DNA from: Actinomycetes bacterium
GTDB taxonomy: Bacteria > Actinomycetota > Humimicrobiia > Humimicrobiales > Humimicrobiaceae
Length of the DNA: 11,793 nucleotides
Reading direction: 5' to 3'
NCBI GenBank assembly: GCA_030609215.1
Contig: JAUWCR010000012.1
Coordinates: forward strand, 1-11,793
Below, piece after piece: positions 2,611-11,793 of the stretch (its first letter is position 1; each line of letters starts with the position of its first letter). The position numbers and the translations under genes were made by a program. Under the pieces are notes generated by a model that had not been told where the DNA came from, did no database searches, and saw only the letters and a list, made by a program, of their open reading frames with translations.

Positions 2611-2968
2611 TTAAAAAAATATAAAAAAGTAATAAGAGATATTCTTCAATAATATAATTAATATAATTAAAATGGCTAAAAAGCAATAATGGAAGATTTA
2701 AAATGATATAAGTTATAGAAAAGATTGATGTATGCCCTGACAGGCTTCGTTGTTGGGAAATGGTAGAGACAGGTAAATCTACATATATACAATAGGGAGC
2801 CAGAGATTTAGAAGGTTTCCAGGGAAGATATTAAAAGAGTTATTTTAGTTAAAATGAGAAAGATGTAATATAAATTCAGAAAAGTTATGTGAATAGTTAT
2901 GGAAAGAAAGCTAAATATACCACAGGAAGATAAAATAAAGAATTTAGGGTATATGGTAAATTATTTGC

Positions 2969-2992
2969 CAAGCAAGCAAGCAAGCAAGCAAG
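2969..2992 (+). repeat. Tetranucleotide repeat, six CAAG units
   Basis: Six perfect tandem copies of CAAG lie in a noncoding stretch just before a hairpin at 2991-3013. Repeats of this kind can change copy number by slippage. Here they do not sit in a reading frame, so any effect would act through RNA or spacing. Confidence 0.9.
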
Positions 2993-3070
2993 CTCTTTAG
3001 AAAATAAAGCGCTATGCAATAGTTGTTCTTTAAAAAAAATAGTTAATAAGTTTGACTTTATAGTAATTGC

Positions 3071-3130
3071 AAGGAGATAAAGCGATTCATGGTCCTTATG
3101 ACCAATTGATTCGTTTTATCTCCTTTTTTA
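3071..3130 (+). terminator. Strong rho-independent terminator with long stem
   Basis: The left arm beginning AAGGAGATAAA (3071) pairs with the right arm ending TTTTATCTCCTT (3125), continuing through GCGA-TTCA and TGGTC against GACCA to a small loop around CTTAT, with only minor mismatches. The 3' side runs into TTTTTTATTT. The stem is more than 20 pairs, longer than a typical terminator. It would end the candidate noncoding RNA that starts near 2617. Confidence 0.8.
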
Positions 3131-3196
3131 TTTATATAGAAATTTACTATAAAAAAAATGGGAGTTTGGAGGCGAGAGAATATGTGAAAGGAAAAA

Positions 3197-5770: not shown

Positions 5771-5972
5771 AAAGATAAATTCTAACAAATTAAGAGTTAA
5801 TCTTACTAAATATTTGACTAAAAATTTAGGAGATACGATTTATATTACTAAATATAGAAGGCTGGTAGCGGAGCTTAAAATTTATACAGATAAAATGAGG
5901 AAGGAAGCTGAGCTTGATATAGCTAAAGGAATGGTTAAAGTTGCAAATAAAAATAACGGGCAAAATCAATAA
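5757..5972 (+). CDS. Phd/YefM-like antitoxin, no toxin partner
   Basis: This 71-residue protein matches the N-terminal DNA-binding part of the Phd/YefM antitoxin family: MKIIKKINSNKLRVNLTKYL, then GDTIYITKYRRLVAELK (25-41), following the family pattern of a helix, a G-(D/E)-x-I-x-I-T strand, R-x-x-x-V-A-x-L, and a loose charged C-terminal tail that normally wraps the toxin. Such antitoxins neutralise a toxin (Doc, YoeB, VapC or others) and repress their own promoter. No toxin gene follows: the next gene is a GGDEF-HD-GYP protein that overlaps this gene by 32 bases. The start is good: AGGAG (5743-5747) lies 9 bases before ATG 5757. It may be an orphan whose toxin was lost, or a repressor now controlling the c-di-GMP gene. 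Confidence 0.6.
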   Translation: MKIIKKINSNKLRVNLTKYLTKNLGDTIYITKYRRLVAELKIYTDKMRKEAELDIAKGMVKVANKNNGQNQ

Positions 5973-7200
5973 AAATAAAAGAATAATTTTAACTTCTGTG
6001 TTACTTATACTGGTCTCTATTATAATATGGTCAAGTGAGATTATAGGCATTTCTTACCATCTTTCAGGTGTTTCTACCACTCTTATGTATTGGGCAGAAG
6101 CTACTTTTTTGACTCTGGTATTAGTCTTAGTTGGTATTATAATTAGTTTTATTGACAATAAGTTTAAAAAAGCTGCAGATGAATTGAAATATATTTCCTA
6201 CCATAACATTCTAACTGGCTTATGCAACAGAGCTTACCTTGAAGAAGAACTAAAAAGAATAGACACATGTAGACAACTTCCAATAAGTATTATTTTAGGA
6301 GATGTAAATAACTTAAAGCTAGTAAATGATACTTTTGGTCACAAGGAGGGAGACAGGCTACTTATAAAGATAGCTGAGATGCTGAAAGCCTTTTGCAGAA
6401 AAGAAGATGTTATTGCCCGGTGGGGAGGAGATGAATTTTTAATCCTTCTTCCTCAAACTACTGGTAATGAAGCAGAAGAAATTAAAGATAGGCTAAGAAA
6501 TGCTTTTAAAGGAACCAGTGAACTGAAAGTACCTGCTTCCATATCTTTAGGAGTTTCAACAAAGGAAAAAGTCAGTCAAGATATTCAAACTACAATAAGA
6601 AGAGCAGAAGACAATATGTATAGGCGTAAGTTGCTTGAAGAAGAGAGTACTTCCAGCTCTATAATAAAATCACTTGAAATAGTACTGCTTGAAAAAAGCC
6701 ATGAAACCAAAGAACACGCTGAGCGTATGAAAAAATTAGCTTTAAAATTGGGGTGTTTTTTAGGACTACCAGAAAATGAGCTTGATAAATTATTACTGCT
6801 TTCCTCTCTTCATGATATAGGTAAGGTTGGAGTAAGTGATGAAATTCTATTAAAAAAAGGAGAGCTAACAAAAAGAGAATGGGAAAATGTAAAAAAGCAT
6901 TCTGAAGTGGGTTATAAGATTGCTAAATCAGCTGCTGCAATTGCACATATAGCGGACGGTATTCTATTTCATCATGAGCGGTGGGATGGCACTGGTTATC
7001 CTTGTAGATTAAAAGGTGAAGATATTCCAACAATCTCCCGTATTTTATCGATAGTTGATGCATATGATGTCATGACCAATGGAAGGGTATACAAAAAAAA
7101 GTTATCAAAAAAAGAAGCCATCAAAGAACTTAATAGATGTGCTGGAACTCAGTTTGATCCAGAATTGACTGAAAAATTTATCAATATAATTAAAGTTTAA
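5941..7200 (+). CDS. Membrane GGDEF-HD-GYP protein (c-di-GMP synthesis and breakdown)
   Basis: The 419-residue protein has two membrane helices (about 14-37 and 47-71) with little between them, so there is no obvious external sensor. A GGDEF domain (about 88-235) follows, beginning ILTGLCNR, with an intact GGDEF (162-166) and an intact inhibitory site RKED (153-156) five residues before it. Then comes an HD-GYP domain (about 240-415) with H259, HDIGK (291-295), HHERWDGTGYP (344-354) and DAYD (373-376). All key residues of both activities are visible, so it could both make c-di-GMP from two GTP and hydrolyse it. The start is TTG 5941, inside the 3' end of the antitoxin-like gene with AAAGGA about 11 bases upstream, suggesting translational coupling. 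No earlier start is better, and a later one would lose the first helix. Environmental control is not evident from sequence. Confidence 0.9.
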   Translation: MQIKITGKINKNKRIILTSVLLILVSIIIWSSEIIGISYHLSGVSTTLMYWAEATFLTLVLVLVGIIISFIDNKFKKAADELKYISYHNILTGLCNRAYLEEELKRIDTCRQLPISIILGDVNNLKLVNDTFGHKEGDRLLIKIAEMLKAFCRKEDVIARWGGDEFLILLPQTTGNEAEEIKDRLRNAFKGTSELKVPASISLGVSTKEKVSQDIQTTIRRAEDNMYRRKLLEEESTSSSIIKSLEIVLLEKSHETKEHAERMKKLALKLGCFLGLPENELDKLLLLSSLHDIGKVGVSDEILLKKGELTKREWENVKKHSEVGYKIAKSAAAIAHIADGILFHHERWDGTGYPCRLKGEDIPTISRILSIVDAYDVMTNGRVYKKKLSKKEAIKELNRCAGTQFDPELTEKFINIIKV

Positions 7201-7452: not shown

Positions 7453-8433
7453 ATGTTCGATTTTTTTCTAAATGTAATAGGTAGAGATATGGGTATCGAT
7501 CTTGGAACCGCAAATACGGTTGTATATGTCAAAAGTAAGGGAATTATCCTTGAAGAACCATCTATTGTGGCAATCGACAAAGAAAGAAAAAGAATTCTGG
7601 CAGTAGGAAAAGAAGCTAAGAGGATGCTGGGTAGAACTCCTGGAAATATAGTAGCAATCAGGCCTTTAAAAGATGGAGTGATTGCAGATTTTGAAACAAC
7701 AGAAAGAATGCTCAAATATTTTATTCAGAGAATCCATAAAAATGTAGCATTTGCCAGATCAAGAATTGTAATCTGCATACCTTCAGGAATTACTCCTGTG
7801 GAAAGAAAAGCTGTGGTTGAGACAACAGAGCAGGCTGGTGCAAGGGCTGCTTATATAATTGAAGAACCTCTTGCTGCTGCAATTGGTGCAAATCTCCCTA
7901 TAGACGAACCCACTGGCAGCATGGTTGTTGATATTGGAGGAGGCACTTCAGAAGTAGCGGTTATATCACTGGGCGGAATAGTGGTGAGGAAGTCACTTAG
8001 AATAGGCGGTGATGAAATGGACGAAGCTATTATTTATTATCTAAAAAAAGGGCATAATTTGCTTTTAGGGGAAAGAACTGCTGAGAAAGTAAAAATGGAG
8101 ATTGGTTCTACTTTCCCTTTGGAAAATGAAGAGAAAATGAAAATAAATGGAAGGGATCTTATTACGGGGCTACCTAAGACCATTATTATAACCAGCCAGC
8201 AGATAAGGAAAGCCCTTGAAAAAACGATCAATGATATTGTTAATTCCATCGTAGAGGTCCTTGACGGAACTCCCCCGGAATTAGCTTCAGATATTATGAA
8301 GCGAGGCATAGTCCTTGTAGGAGGGGGTTCGTTGCTTAAAGGATTTGCGGAGAGGATCAGCAGGGAAACTCATTGTCCTGTTTATCTGGCTGAAGACCCG
8401 CTTGCTGCAGTAGCTATTGGAGCAGGAAAATGA
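7453..8433 (+). CDS. mreB: MreB-family actin-like protein, C-terminus cut by TGA
   Basis: The 326-residue protein is a clear MreB: phosphate-1 motif DLGTANT (16-22), [10 protein letters not shown] (137-146), [19 protein letters not shown] (phosphate-2, about 152-170), GERTAEKVK (206-214) and the adenosine motif VGGGSLLKG (289-297). MreB polymerises with ATP under the membrane and guides cell-wall synthesis during elongation. The N-terminus [10 protein letters not shown] could form the usual short membrane-binding helix. The frame stops at TGA 8431-8433 after VAIGAGK, but the same frame continues VEDFSALKRYL to TAA 8479-8481, like the normal MreB tail, so the last 16 residues look lost by a point change. 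The start ATG 7453 lacks a strong ribosome binding site. mreC and mreD, usually next, are absent. It is probably a second, isolated mreB copy that may still work, since only the tail is lost. Confidence 0.9.
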
Positions 8434-8849: not shown

Positions 8850-9554
8850 TTGAAAGATATTAATCACAAACTACTGGTTAAAAAGATAATTCTATCAAGA
8901 TTTTTGGAAATGTCTTTGAAAAAATATGAAGACTATATTGAAAGTTTGAAAACAAATTCTGAGTTTACAAAACTTACTAATTGGAAATGTACAAAATCTA
9001 ATCAGGATATAATTAAAATTGTTAACTTCCCTGAAACCACGGGGAATAGCAGAAACTGCAAATGGCCAAAAAATGTTCTAGCAGAAGTTACAGTAAACAA
9101 AGATTGCTATTTAATAAATTATAGAAATGAATGGTTTTCAAAAAAGATTGATATAGACCAAATTAAACTAGATAGGTTTTTAGAAAATAAAAAGTTGATT
9201 AGCGAAAAAAAAACATCTGTAAGAAATTTACTGGCTAAGATTCGTCTTATTAATATTAGAAATAGCATCACCTATAAGGTACTGAGGGGCGTTATTCATT
9301 TTCAGAAAGATTTTTTTATAAAAAATAGTGATTTATTTTCTCTCAAAGTGCTTTCATTTTCAGATGTAAGTAAATGGACAAATGATAATTTTGAAAATGG
9401 CGTATGCATTGATAATAGCAGGATGTCAAGAGTAATCAATGGTAAATCTATTGTCACTAAGGATGGTCATGAAATAGAGCTAATAAAGCTATTCCCTTCA
9501 TCAAGAAATATAAAAAAAAATATATTAAAAAGACCTTTTACTCAGAATGTATAA
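8850..9554 (+). CDS. Sigma-54 (RpoN)-like protein, shortened, N-terminal frame
   Basis: This 234-residue frame resembles sigma-54 but is reduced. Residues 8-42 look like region I (a helix pair containing KKYEDYIESL). Residues 73-120 look like the end of the core-binding region. Residues 121-215 resemble the DNA-binding part: RNSITYKVLRGVIHFQKDFF (137-156), then a degenerate helix-turn-helix DVSKWTN...DNSRMSRVINGKS, then GHEIELIKLF where RpoN has a G-x-x-E-L-K-x-F-F block. Normal sigma-54 is about 450 residues, so much of the core-binding domain is missing. The RpoN box is not in this frame: it follows in the -1 frame after a nine-A run. The start TTG 8850 is the first usable codon after an in-frame stop, with a weak AGAAAG site. 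The promoter type it would read, or whether it binds RNA polymerase at all, cannot be told. Confidence 0.6.
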   Translation: MKDINHKLLVKKIILSRFLEMSLKKYEDYIESLKTNSEFTKLTNWKCTKSNQDIIKIVNFPETTGNSRNCKWPKNVLAEVTVNKDCYLINYRNEWFSKKIDIDQIKLDRFLENKKLISEKKTSVRNLLAKIRLINIRNSITYKVLRGVIHFQKDFFIKNSDLFSLKVLSFSDVSKWTNDNFENGVCIDNSRMSRVINGKSIVTKDGHEIELIKLFPSSRNIKKNILKRPFTQNV

Positions 9555-9568
9555 GTATAACTAAAGGT
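9512..9568 (+). promoter_or_regulatory. Possible -1 frameshift site (A9 run plus downstream stem)
   Basis: Nine A (9512-9520) contain the slippery heptamers A-AAA-AAA and A-AAA-AAT in the zero frame of the upstream gene. ACCTTT (9533-9538) and AAAGGT (9563-9568) can form a 6-bp stem starting about 12 bases downstream, with the zero-frame stop (9552-9554) in its loop. A -1 slip, or one extra A in the transcript, joins the sigma-54-like frame to the RpoN box/GIY-YIG frame. A simple one-base deletion or a sequencing error in the run gives the same picture. Confidence 0.45.
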
Positions 9569-9697
9569 ATAATAAAAGCAGCTTATACTGATAGAGAGAT
9601 TGCGAAAAAAATAACGACTGCAAGTGGAATTGATATTTCAAGAAGGACTATTGGAAATTGTCGAAAAGAGCTTGGAATTGAAAGCTCTTATAGAAGA
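9521..9697 (+). other. RpoN-box-like segment in the -1 frame
   Basis: This frame, open from the A run into the GIY-YIG part, encodes YTDREIAKKI, GIDISRRTIGNCRKELGI and a following basic stretch. It matches the end of sigma-54, where a D-x-x-I-A-x-x-(L/I) helix precedes the RpoN box (ARRTVAKYRE); here the box reads SRRTIGNCRK (9638-9667). Its position right after the DNA-binding part of the upstream frame shows that the two frames once formed, or still form, one protein. Confidence 0.7.
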
Positions 9698-10072
9698 ATG
9701 AATATAATTTATCCACCCCTAAATTTTGATTGTTCGCGTTTTTTCCCTTTTAAAAATCAATCAGTTAGAAAAAATGCACCAAAAAAACCAGGAGTGTATG
9801 AGTTTAGTACAAGAAGTGGGGAGATTGAATATTTAAATGGGATATCAAAGATTTTTTATATAGGTAGTTCAAAAAATATTAGAAAGAGAATATTGGAACA
9901 TCTGGGAGCTAGTGGAAGAAATGGAGGTATAAAGAATTTCTGTAAAGACCATGGCTGTTTATTTAGATATAAGTTATGTTCAGAAAATTGGAATAAAGCA
10001 GAAAAGGAATTATACTATAAATTTCTTTCGTTATTTGGAGAACCACCAAAGTGCAATTATATGAAGCCATAG
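9698..10072 (+). CDS. GIY-YIG nuclease domain (C-terminal part of sigma-54-like fusion)
   Basis: The 124 residues from ATG 9698 hold a full GIY-YIG endonuclease module: PGVYEF (31-36, the GIY part), FYIGSSKNIRKRILEH (YIG part with the conserved Arg), and AEKELYYKF...GEPPKCN with the conserved Glu and closing P-x-x-C-N. All catalytic positions (both Tyr, Arg, Glu) appear present. GIY-YIG enzymes cut DNA strands using a metal ion; members include homing and restriction enzymes and UvrC. The frame is open upstream to the A run at 9512-9520 and carries the RpoN box, so the natural protein is more likely a 407-residue fusion read through a -1 shift. ATG 9698 has only a mediocre AGAAGA before it, yet independent expression is possible. 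It could belong to mobile DNA, given the transposase and replication-initiator remnants just downstream. Confidence 0.8.
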   Translation: MNIIYPPLNFDCSRFFPFKNQSVRKNAPKKPGVYEFSTRSGEIEYLNGISKIFYIGSSKNIRKRILEHLGASGRNGGIKNFCKDHGCLFRYKLCSENWNKAEKELYYKFLSLFGEPPKCNYMKP

Positions 10073-10122
10073 TGAGAATTTTGCATCAATTTGGAATAAG
10101 ATAGGCGGAAAATAATAAACTT

Positions 10123-10431
10123 TTATTTGGTATTTTTTCCATCTTTTGATTTATAGATAATCTTAGATTCCTCAACTATATAGTTCATTCTCTCCTGGGA
10201 AAAGGATGCCCTAATAATATACCTTGCAAGATTTTCCATAGACTGGACACTTCTGGGATAAATTCTTTCTCCACAATATACATTGAATCCAGAATGGTAC
10301 CAGGAAGATATAAGTTCTATTGTCCTTGCTGTAATAAGACCTTTTTTCTTTAACATTGAAAGTACCTCATGTCTAAATAGAAGCTCAAGCTCTTCTGCAT
10401 TTATTTTGACTGGAGAGGCGGTTCACGCAGC
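10123..10431 (-). pseudogene. IS91-type (Y2) transposase fragment
   Basis: On the minus strand about 100 codons match the middle of IS91/IS801-type rolling-circle transposases: PVKINAEELELLFRHEVLSM, then GLITARTIELISSWYHSGFNVYCG, then ENLARYIIRASFS and IIYKSKDGKNTK. The longest ATG-started frame is 10123-10356, but similarity starts further upstream, near 10431. The N-terminal zinc-binding part and the C-terminal half with the rest of the catalytic core are missing; the frame ends at TAA just after the conserved SKDGKN block. It is a dead remnant inserted between the GIY-YIG gene and an unrelated fragment. Its edges may mark old recombination points. Confidence 0.75.
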
Positions 10432-10677: not shown

Positions 10678-11199
10678 ATGAATAATAGAAGAAATATAAG
10701 TAATAATTCTCGAAATACTTCCGGCAATAAAAAGAGCTCAGATAGTGGTGAATATAATTCTACACCTGCTAATAGATTTTATACGGCTAAGGAAGAAATA
10801 AAGCTTAGGTTTTACCAGGTACCAAAATCTTTATTTAATAATCCCACCTACAAGAACCTTTCTCTGGGAGCAAAATTAATGTATTCAATTCTAAGAGACA
10901 GACTGGATGTATCTATAAAAAATAAATGGGAAGATGAAAATGGGTATATATATTTAATTTTTACTGTTGATGAGATAGAAGAAATTTTAGAAGTTACTAG
11001 AAAAACAGCGATAAAGCATAAGAAAGAACTGAAAAATTTTGGACTGATAATTGATAAAAGAGTAGGACAAGGGAATCCTAATAGAATTTATGTTTTAAAA
11101 CCTTTACTAACAGAGTCTCTGAAGTGTAAAAATTCCACTTCAAGAAGTGTAAAAAAGGAACTTCAAGAAGTGTATAATGTACACCCTATTGATACTTAA
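10678..11199 (+). CDS. RepA_N-type replication initiator, C-terminally truncated
   Basis: The 173-residue protein has a disordered Asn/Ser-rich head (1-35) and then the RepA_N domain (about 43-122): FYQVPKSLFNNPTYKNLSLGAKLMYSIL, DENGYIYLIFTVDEI, TRKTAIKHKKELKNFGLI and GNPNRIYV. This is the winged-helix DNA-binding domain of plasmid and integrative-element replication initiators of low-G+C Gram-positive bacteria, which bind origin repeats and open the DNA. Family members usually have a further C-terminal region; here the typical linker (S-R-S-V-K, then LQEVYNVHPIDT) runs straight into TAA at the probable end of an IS3-type element (about 11200), so the protein was cut by insertion. No origin repeats are seen. 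No ribosome binding site precedes ATG 10678, so the start is uncertain. It is likely a plasmid or ICE relic, now inactive. Confidence 0.75.
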   Translation: MNNRRNISNNSRNTSGNKKSSDSGEYNSTPANRFYTAKEEIKLRFYQVPKSLFNNPTYKNLSLGAKLMYSILRDRLDVSIKNKWEDENGYIYLIFTVDEIEEILEVTRKTAIKHKKELKNFGLIIDKRVGQGNPNRIYVLKPLLTESLKCKNSTSRSVKKELQEVYNVHPIDT

Positions 11200-11241: not shown

Positions 11242-11793
11242 CTACACTTTTATATTAGAAACAGTACGATCTTTACCAAAATATATCTCTGCTGGAGGAG
11301 AATATCCTAAACTAGAATGTAGCCTTTCATTATTATAAAAAGTAAAATAATTATCTATAGATGCTTTTGCATCTATGCAATTGTCATAATCCTTCAGATA
11401 TACCCCTTCATATTTTAAACTCCTCCATAATCTTTCAGTAAATATATTATCAAATACTCTACCCCTTCCATCCATACTTACTTTTACATTAGCTGACTTA
11501 ACTTTCTCTACATACTCTTCTGCTGTAAACTAACTTCCCTGGTCTGAATTATTGATCTCTGGCTTTGCTATTTTAAATGCCCTGTCTAAAGACTCTAAAC
11601 AAAATTCTACTGATAAGCTATTAGACAAAACCCAGCTTATAATACATCTTGAATACCAATCCATTATCGCAACTAAATACATAAATCCTTTTCTCATCCT
11701 AATATAGGTAATATCTGTTCCCCATACTTGGTTTGGATACGATATTTTTATCCCCTCCAGTAGATATGGATATTTTTTATTCTTGCAATTGCT
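11242..11793 (-). pseudogene. IS3-family transposase OrfB, partial, with amber stop
   Basis: The minus strand encodes the integrase (rve/DDE) domain of an IS3-family OrfB. Reading from the window edge: YPYLLEGIKISYPNQVWGTD (first catalytic Asp), YLVAIMDWYSR, NNSDQGS (second Asp), then MDGRGRVFDNIFTERLW (catalytic Glu) and YNNERLHSSLGYSPPAEIYF, ending at TAG 11242-11244. One codon is broken: the expected GSQFT reads GS-stop-FT, an amber TAG at plus positions 11530-11532 (CAG to TAG). The 5' part of OrfB and all of OrfA lie beyond the right edge. With the stop the transposase is probably inactive. The element appears to have inserted into the RepA_N gene, which ends where it begins. Confidence 0.9.

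Follow-up and report, generated by a model that had tools for sequence, protein, structure and literature searches.

We analysed a window of 11,793 nt, which is contig 89 in a draft genome (1.34 Mb) of the family Humimicrobiaceae (Actinomycetota), and studied a gene at positions 8850 to 10072 of its forward strand. The gene is written in two frames which meet at a run of nine A's (A9); when they are joined, the DNA-binding part of sigma-54 (RpoN) is followed by a GIY-YIG nuclease domain, an architecture that we regard as near certain. From its residues and its predicted fold, the product is likely a sequence-specific nuclease, and a selfish, homing-type role is our preferred reading at about even odds. 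The complete reading, that this is a selfish, homing-type, sequence-specific nuclease which borrowed its reader from sigma-54 and that the cutting form would be made only after slippage on the A9 run, is given a probability of roughly 0.5. The family is a variant among the GIY-YIG nucleases, and for its reuse of sigma-54 our searches found no description.

The features of the gene are listed below. The comparison of the gene at the DNA level covers three loci, namely the window and two others called L009 and L010 (the last partial).

8850..9554 (+): zero-frame open reading frame (ORF) of 234 codons with a TTG start; N-terminal helices, remnant of the sigma-54 core domain, long helix and helix-turn-helix (HTH, the -12 reader), from Pfam, TIGR02395 and the model of relative P0001
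9204..9503 (+): Sigma54_DBD, first part (HTH half), 24.1-24.2 bits, above the cut-off
9512..9520 (+): A9 run with the required -1 change of frame; nine A's in the window, L009 and L010
9521..10072 (+): -1 frame continuation with RpoN box and GIY-YIG domain; 549 nt free of stops and length differences in the three loci
9575..9697 (+): Sigma54_DBD, second part, including the RpoN box, 23.9-24.2 bits
9638-9667 (+): RpoN box SRRTIGNCRK in the -1 frame
9698..10072 (+): ORF from the first ATG, GTG or TTG of the -1 frame; begins downstream of the RpoN box
9842..10021 (+): GIY-YIG Pfam match, residues 110-169 of the -1 frame translation, 27.2 bits

A sigma-54 DNA reader joined to a nuclease domain

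The two frames represent consecutive, ordered parts of one Pfam family, Sigma54_DBD. The zero frame covers profile positions 6-91 and the -1 frame positions 119-158, both with E 3.2e-5 and 24.2 bits (cut-off 22.8), and in the -1 frame the second part is followed by GIY-YIG with E 4.9e-6 and 27.2 bits (cut-off 22.6). The same order is found with NCBIfam TIGR02395, in which the zero frame covers positions 227-366 and the -1 frame positions 396-433 of 434. The scores of 32.5 and 21.5 bits are far below the equivalog cut-off of 277.35 for true RpoN and coverage starts only at position 227; against the PDB chain 5ui5_I, which has 342 residues, the sequence match starts at residue 148. With the limits of the RNA-polymerase-binding core as they are generally given for sigma-54, most of this core apparently has no counterpart in the joined protein. 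The HTH, which reads the -12 element, and the RpoN box, which reads the -24 element, are retained, and a complete GIY-YIG domain lies downstream of the box. A confident structure model of the relative P0001 likewise joins the sigma-54 DNA-binding part to a GIY-YIG fold. The Tyr and Gly residues of GIY and YIG and the catalytic Arg are present in all 54 alignment rows that reach the domain, and the catalytic Glu and Asn in 49 of 49 and 48 of 48 rows with a residue at the position. For Region I, the 24 Pfam families listed across 59 members did not include Sigma54_AID, and the profile comparison was not significant; the structural alignments bearing on this question begin at chain residue 9-15 in many rows.

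An earlier note, made from the sequence alone, had described the zero frame as resembling a reduced sigma-54 and the -1 frame as carrying the RpoN box and a full GIY-YIG domain with its catalytic residues. These descriptions are borne out by the matches above, by the conserved positions in relatives and by the model of P0001; the coordinates, the frames, the A9 run and the joined length of 407 residues, obtained when the zero frame is continued in the -1 frame after the run, were also right.

Compared with sigma-54 (PF04552 / TIGR02395), the joined protein shares the DNA-binding domain, the HTH and the RpoN box, but apparently lacks most of the core-binding domain, scores far under the equivalog level and has gained a nuclease domain. 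It also occurs in a class where no other Sigma54_DBD was found above the cut-off in 40 genomes, and for this reason it is probably not a working sigma factor. When compared with the GIY-YIG nucleases (the N-terminal domain of UvrC, T4 EndoII and the I-TevI type), it shares the motifs, the catalytic residues and the fold, but its DNA reader is N-terminal and derived from sigma-54. The I-TevI-type homing endonucleases differ further, since those 24 Pfam families include no NUMOD DNA-binding module and no full relative came from the viral contigs and phage records searched; as to an intron location, Rfam gave no match (E<=0.1) in the window. Our literature searches found no published description of a sigma-54-derived reader fused to a GIY-YIG nuclease, in agreement with the earlier note, which knew of no such system. 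The main text of a survey of the GIY-YIG superfamily (PMC1564403) contains neither "sigma" nor "RpoN", and a paper with both terms used them in separate places only, in the parts of its text that were covered.

Conservation of the frame break

The break is shared by most of the close relatives. Among the 23 closest homologues (P0001-P0023), 21 end within about 18 residues after the A run. A search with the C-terminal half gave 14 proteins, of which 12 are further separate C-terminal ORFs and the remaining two are the window's own and P0028. The longest-contig values 3202, 3596 and 8197 appear in the lists for both halves, which suggests that some N-half and C-half homologues lie on shared contigs. 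In G029 and G034, the two other genomes of the class that carry the gene, the run at this place is likewise nine A's long. Downstream of the run, 549 nt contain neither a stop nor a length difference in any of the three loci, while 5.9-8.7 stops were expected in simulations of random substitution to equal divergence, and the frequency of trials without a stop was 0, 0.0002 and 0.0034 (5,000 trials each). The ratio of nonsynonymous to synonymous substitution rates (dN/dS) amounts to 0.14-0.36 upstream of the run, where L010 is partial with 93 codons, and to 0.35-0.37 downstream. By these measures, both frames are under constraint in Humimicrobiaceae, and the gene is kept in two frames that meet at A9. 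Because both frames are maintained in three loci and homologues in one frame exist, the joined protein is not a chance read-through, and both a conserved split and a translated joined product are likely from the sequence comparison.

The same data bear on the possibility that the window copy is a decayed gene. Its frame is interrupted, and repeats and apparent broken transposase genes lie nearby. Relatives at 65-80% identity share the interruption, stops and indels are absent, and the overall dN/dS is well below 1 in both frames; decay, disfavoured already, is very improbable.

The slip site is the A9 at 9512-9520. A second A9 run, at 9205-9213, lies inside the zero frame and disrupts nothing; L009 has no run of at least 8 A's there, and if all A9 runs slipped, this second one would cost product. 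From the junction residues, 4 of the 23 close homologues, which are not sisters in the tree, imply a run length other than nine; the lengths were read from protein only, and single assemblies may hold errors. This fits the tolerance of run length seen in transcriptional slippage, or else phase variation, in which changes in the length of the A run in the DNA would switch a one-frame gene between an on and an off state. Of the four, two have no interruption, as phase variation would have it. The interrupted state is nevertheless the rule (21 of 23), and yet the downstream frame is free of stops in three loci, so we consider phase variation unlikely.

A further explanation is that two separate proteins are made from one transcript, with the C-terminal ORF initiated on its own and without slippage. 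The ATG at 10717 in L009 and the GTG at 3898 in L010 come soon after the zero-frame stop and upstream of the RpoN box, the halves are stored as separate ORFs in databases, and constraint is weaker ahead of the window's start codon than downstream of it. On the other hand, the first standard start of the window's -1 frame (9698) lies behind the conserved RpoN box, and a protein begun at this codon would be without the box; the more distant relatives that were aligned are single chains, and a split would halve the sigma-54 DNA-binding domain. We rate this explanation as rather unlikely.

The preferred slippage reading has precedents. According to one passage of PMC1088944, dnaX of Thermus thermophilus contains nine A's at which slippage yields half of the product in the short form, and by the abstract of PMC4256274 the long form of TssM is produced through an A11 run. 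The nuclease gene resembles these genes (Thermus dnaX, C. rodentium tssM and insertion sequence genes) in having an A run with a conserved downstream frame, but its split sits between two halves of one DNA-binding domain, and its slippage is a prediction. We favour transcriptional slippage over ribosomal -1 shifting at A9. RNA polymerase (or the ribosome) would slip at the run; the unslipped product would be a short protein with neither RpoN box nor nuclease, and some fraction would be the full nuclease. The full protein would then bind a -24/-12-like site and cut beside it, and the gene would most likely act as a free-standing selfish element of the homing type.

Distribution of the family

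The search with the joined sequence gave 34 proteins. P0001 and P0002 cover the whole joined protein in one uninterrupted frame at 69% and 67% identity, and P0024-P0034 (29-41% identity) are likewise continuous across the break position, although the N-terminus is partly or largely missing in P0025, P0028 and P0029. In a distant subfamily (P0027 and P0030-P0034), the proteins end within the nuclease domain at nearly one position, either ahead of the catalytic Glu or close to it, which is possibly a second conserved break. With tblastn against 72,556 records, five matched: full-length relatives on Diaphorobacter and Sulfuricystis plasmids, a partial one on an Arcobacter plasmid, and two records annotated rpoN. 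Pfam finds both domains in one frame in the three plasmid proteins, with one domain below the cut-off in P0048 (GIY-YIG) and in P0050 (Sigma54_DBD). With a profile search, 264 proteins were obtained (E<=1e-10), and the best 120 of the 264 cover 85-100% of the query. Among the matches listed, the organisms named include Burkholderia, Rhodoferax, Thiobacillus, Sulfuriferula and Methylomicrobium, most rows having no organism; "RNA polymerase factor sigma-54" and "GIY-YIG nuclease family protein" are among the names that the proteins bear in their sources. The homologues that the earlier note wished to see in one frame are therefore at hand: P0001, P0002, the plasmid proteins and the profile-search matches cover both parts. 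Its reading would have fallen had Sigma54_DBD not matched or had the parts always been separate genes; Sigma54_DBD does match, and the parts do occur joined.

Homologues also include proteins filed under Candidatus Humimicrobiaceae, and the contig of G029 carries the label Actinomycetota. The gene is present in 3 of 40 genomes of the class (the window genome, G029 and G034). A search of 396 genomes of the phylum gave 17 with a match: the 3 family genomes that carry the nuclease gene, 13 others that match solely within model columns 99-300 (taken as RpoN), and G386, which matches solely columns 298-357. Relatives were found in Actinomycetota, Betaproteobacteria and, with a weaker match, Campylobacterota. 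This range, together with sporadic presence and differing surroundings, leads us to the selfish, homing-type reading.

The distribution also bears on host sigma-54. Sigma54_DBD matches above the cut-off occur solely in the three class genomes carrying the nuclease gene (many of the 40 are incomplete), and in none of the 17 high-quality class genomes at E<=0.001; two draft genomes, G013 and G030, have short matches below the cut-off. A passage of a sigma-54 survey describes the Actinobacteria as lacking a sigma-54 system (PMC3162934); in contrast, we found sigma-54-like proteins in the 13 other genomes of the phylum. Since no other Sigma54_DBD above the cut-off was found in the 40 class genomes, a role on host sigma-54 promoters or a host regulon is unlikely there. 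Of the candidate roles put forward in the earlier note (mobile-element endonuclease, defence factor or regulator), that of a defence factor was rejected, as PADLOC gave partial matches only (E 0.0075 and 0.0088, above 0.001).

Genomic surroundings, mobility and candidate target sites

The flanks of the three loci show no collinearity save in 27 nt after the stop (window and L009), and they match elsewhere through scattered repeats and signalling genes. In G034, pieces of the gene lie at both ends of one contig, an arrangement that repeats often cause, although this is suggestive only. Plasmids pDCB1 and pSTJ2 share a 3.9-kb block at 82% identity, with the nuclease gene and a globin-PAS-GGDEF-EAL gene, between unrelated flanks. 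On pACLO, the nuclease gene adjoins EAL and methyl-accepting chemotaxis protein genes, and GGDEF-HD or PAS-HD genes lie near it in the window and L009. Genes for cyclic-di-GMP or chemosensory functions are thus often found close by (L046 14967-18837, L047 4793-8660, L048, window 5941-7200, L009 7396-9156 and 12081-13109).

These neighbours are what speaks for a host-side regulatory nuclease or repressor that works with cyclic-di-GMP and chemosensory genes, and whose short form may bind without cutting. The EAL neighbour is kept on pDCB1 and pSTJ2 while the flanks are unrelated, such genes stand beside the nuclease gene on pACLO, and the window and L009 have theirs near. There are, however, only six contexts, two of them orthologous, and such signalling genes are abundant in the family; an mreB gene intervenes in the window, and no signalling gene is evident in the ORF list of L010, where no search was aimed at such genes. 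We regard the regulatory explanation as doubtful.

With regard to target sites, sequence-specific binding to -24/-12-like DNA is plausible as the DNA-reading residues are kept; the cutting or marking of DNA at sigma-54-like sites, as put forward in the earlier note, is a prediction. Two further features follow the gene:

10073..10099 (+): short 3' stretch common to the window and L009 (27 nt after the stop), from DNA comparison
10091..10107 (+): weak -24/-12-like sequence GG-N10-GC directly after the stop, a lead only

L009 shares the 21 nt at 10072-10092 unchanged, and they have no third occurrence in the 40 class genomes (at most 2 mismatches). The earlier note had suggested a test of whether -24-type sites lie near homologues, and the outcome is divided. 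GG-N10-GC on the gene's strand, with GG 20-23 nt past the stop, is found in the window (a weaker site; shuffle P 0.017), pDCB1 and pSTJ2 (orthologous; P about 0.2 each, the stretches being GC-rich), and not at that distance in L009, L010 or L048. Scored against the usual -24/-12 consensus, the intergenic regions of pDCB1 and pSTJ2 between the nuclease and EAL genes hold a near-consensus sequence that scores 20 of the 23 weight points, with best-site P values of 0.04 and 0.015; it may simply be the promoter of the EAL gene. A short (AAGC) array lies there as well. In the scan of 12 flanking regions for sigma-54-like sites, the best-site P was 0.015-1.0, uncorrected, and lowest in these two orthologous regions.

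Several findings weigh against the homing-type reading with slippage. No terminal inverted repeats or target duplication were recognised around the gene in the window, L009, L046 and L047, where the repeats were sought with the ends of any mobile unit undefined; the long direct repeats of L046 (13787-13855 and 18965-19033) fall outside the conserved block. No empty site was recovered from the flanks of L009 and the window, which match multi-copy repeats, mreB and signalling genes, so that no allele pair was found. As neither terminal repeats, target duplication nor an empty site was shown, the case for mobility is drawn from distribution. Of the 6 loci, only 3 have a GG-N10-GC behind the gene; two of the three are orthologous, and in these a site would arise by chance about 20% of the time. 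Many GIY-YIG homing enzymes occur in phages; three scans of viral contigs gave no relative, and of the searches of phage records one gave none and the other two records matching the sigma-54 part only (query 82-282). A viral origin was rejected on this account; in PHROGs, the two halves had no match at E<=0.1, and P0001 and P0024 had weak ones. The GIY-YIG Pfam score is under the cut-off in P0048, P0001, P0024, P0026 and P0027, and that of Sigma54_DBD in P0050. In the 59 codons from A9 to the window's first start codon, dN/dS is 0.66-1.09, that is, constraint is weak, although the high ratio is owed to low dS as much as to raised dN. Finally, there is no conserved stem-loop after A9, with z values of -0.81, -2.15 and +0.39 and no common fold in the three loci.

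Other elements in the window and the family

A repeated leader-like element, which combines an (AAGC)n array with a strong terminator-like hairpin, was found in the window (2888-3192), L009 (11572-12018 and 14416-14840), L089-L091, L093 and L094. Four copies precede genes which we take to be related to gas vesicle GvpA, and one precedes a PAS-HD gene. Rfam matched it neither in the window (E<=0.1) nor in L009 (gathering score), and it is a candidate cis-regulatory RNA. Six of the 40 class genomes together contain eight (AAGC) arrays of at least 5 units, and the 3 genomes with the nuclease gene are all among the six (chance 0.002). On two betaproteobacterial plasmids, such an array likewise lies behind the nuclease gene (L046 16203-16222, L047 6022-6045). 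The complement of such an array is a TTGC run, and TTGC is the -12 core of sigma-54 promoters.

Downstream of the nuclease gene, the window encodes a RepA_N-type replication protein (10678-11199), and 10123-10430 and 11242-11793 (minus strand) are presumably remnants of transposases; 10123-10404 and the stretch behind it recur in many family genomes. A MITE-like (miniature inverted-repeat transposable element) inverted repeat lies upstream of the gene in L009 (9667-9918), and pieces of it occur in several genomes of the family (67-100% identity). For mreB of the window (7453-8433), a second mreB-like stretch with 77% DNA identity exists elsewhere in the same draft genome (G000:C180).

Implications

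Sigma-54 is known as a dedicated transcription factor. If our reading is true, a promoter reader can be recruited for DNA cutting, with the polymerase core mostly dropped and a nuclease gained. As several members are filed under "RNA polymerase factor sigma-54" or "GIY-YIG nuclease", counts of sigma-54 may be inflated. The conserved A9 split offers a clean test case for slippage in an uncultured lineage, and the -24/-12 motif a ready hypothesis for the cut site. More tentatively, and with the odds well against it, a former sigma factor may now serve as the targeting module of a selfish nuclease whose homing sites adjoin -24/-12 elements, the slip at A9 setting whether a binding-only protein or a cutter is made. 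If so, these elements would serve the homing nuclease as a safe harbour just upstream of promoters.
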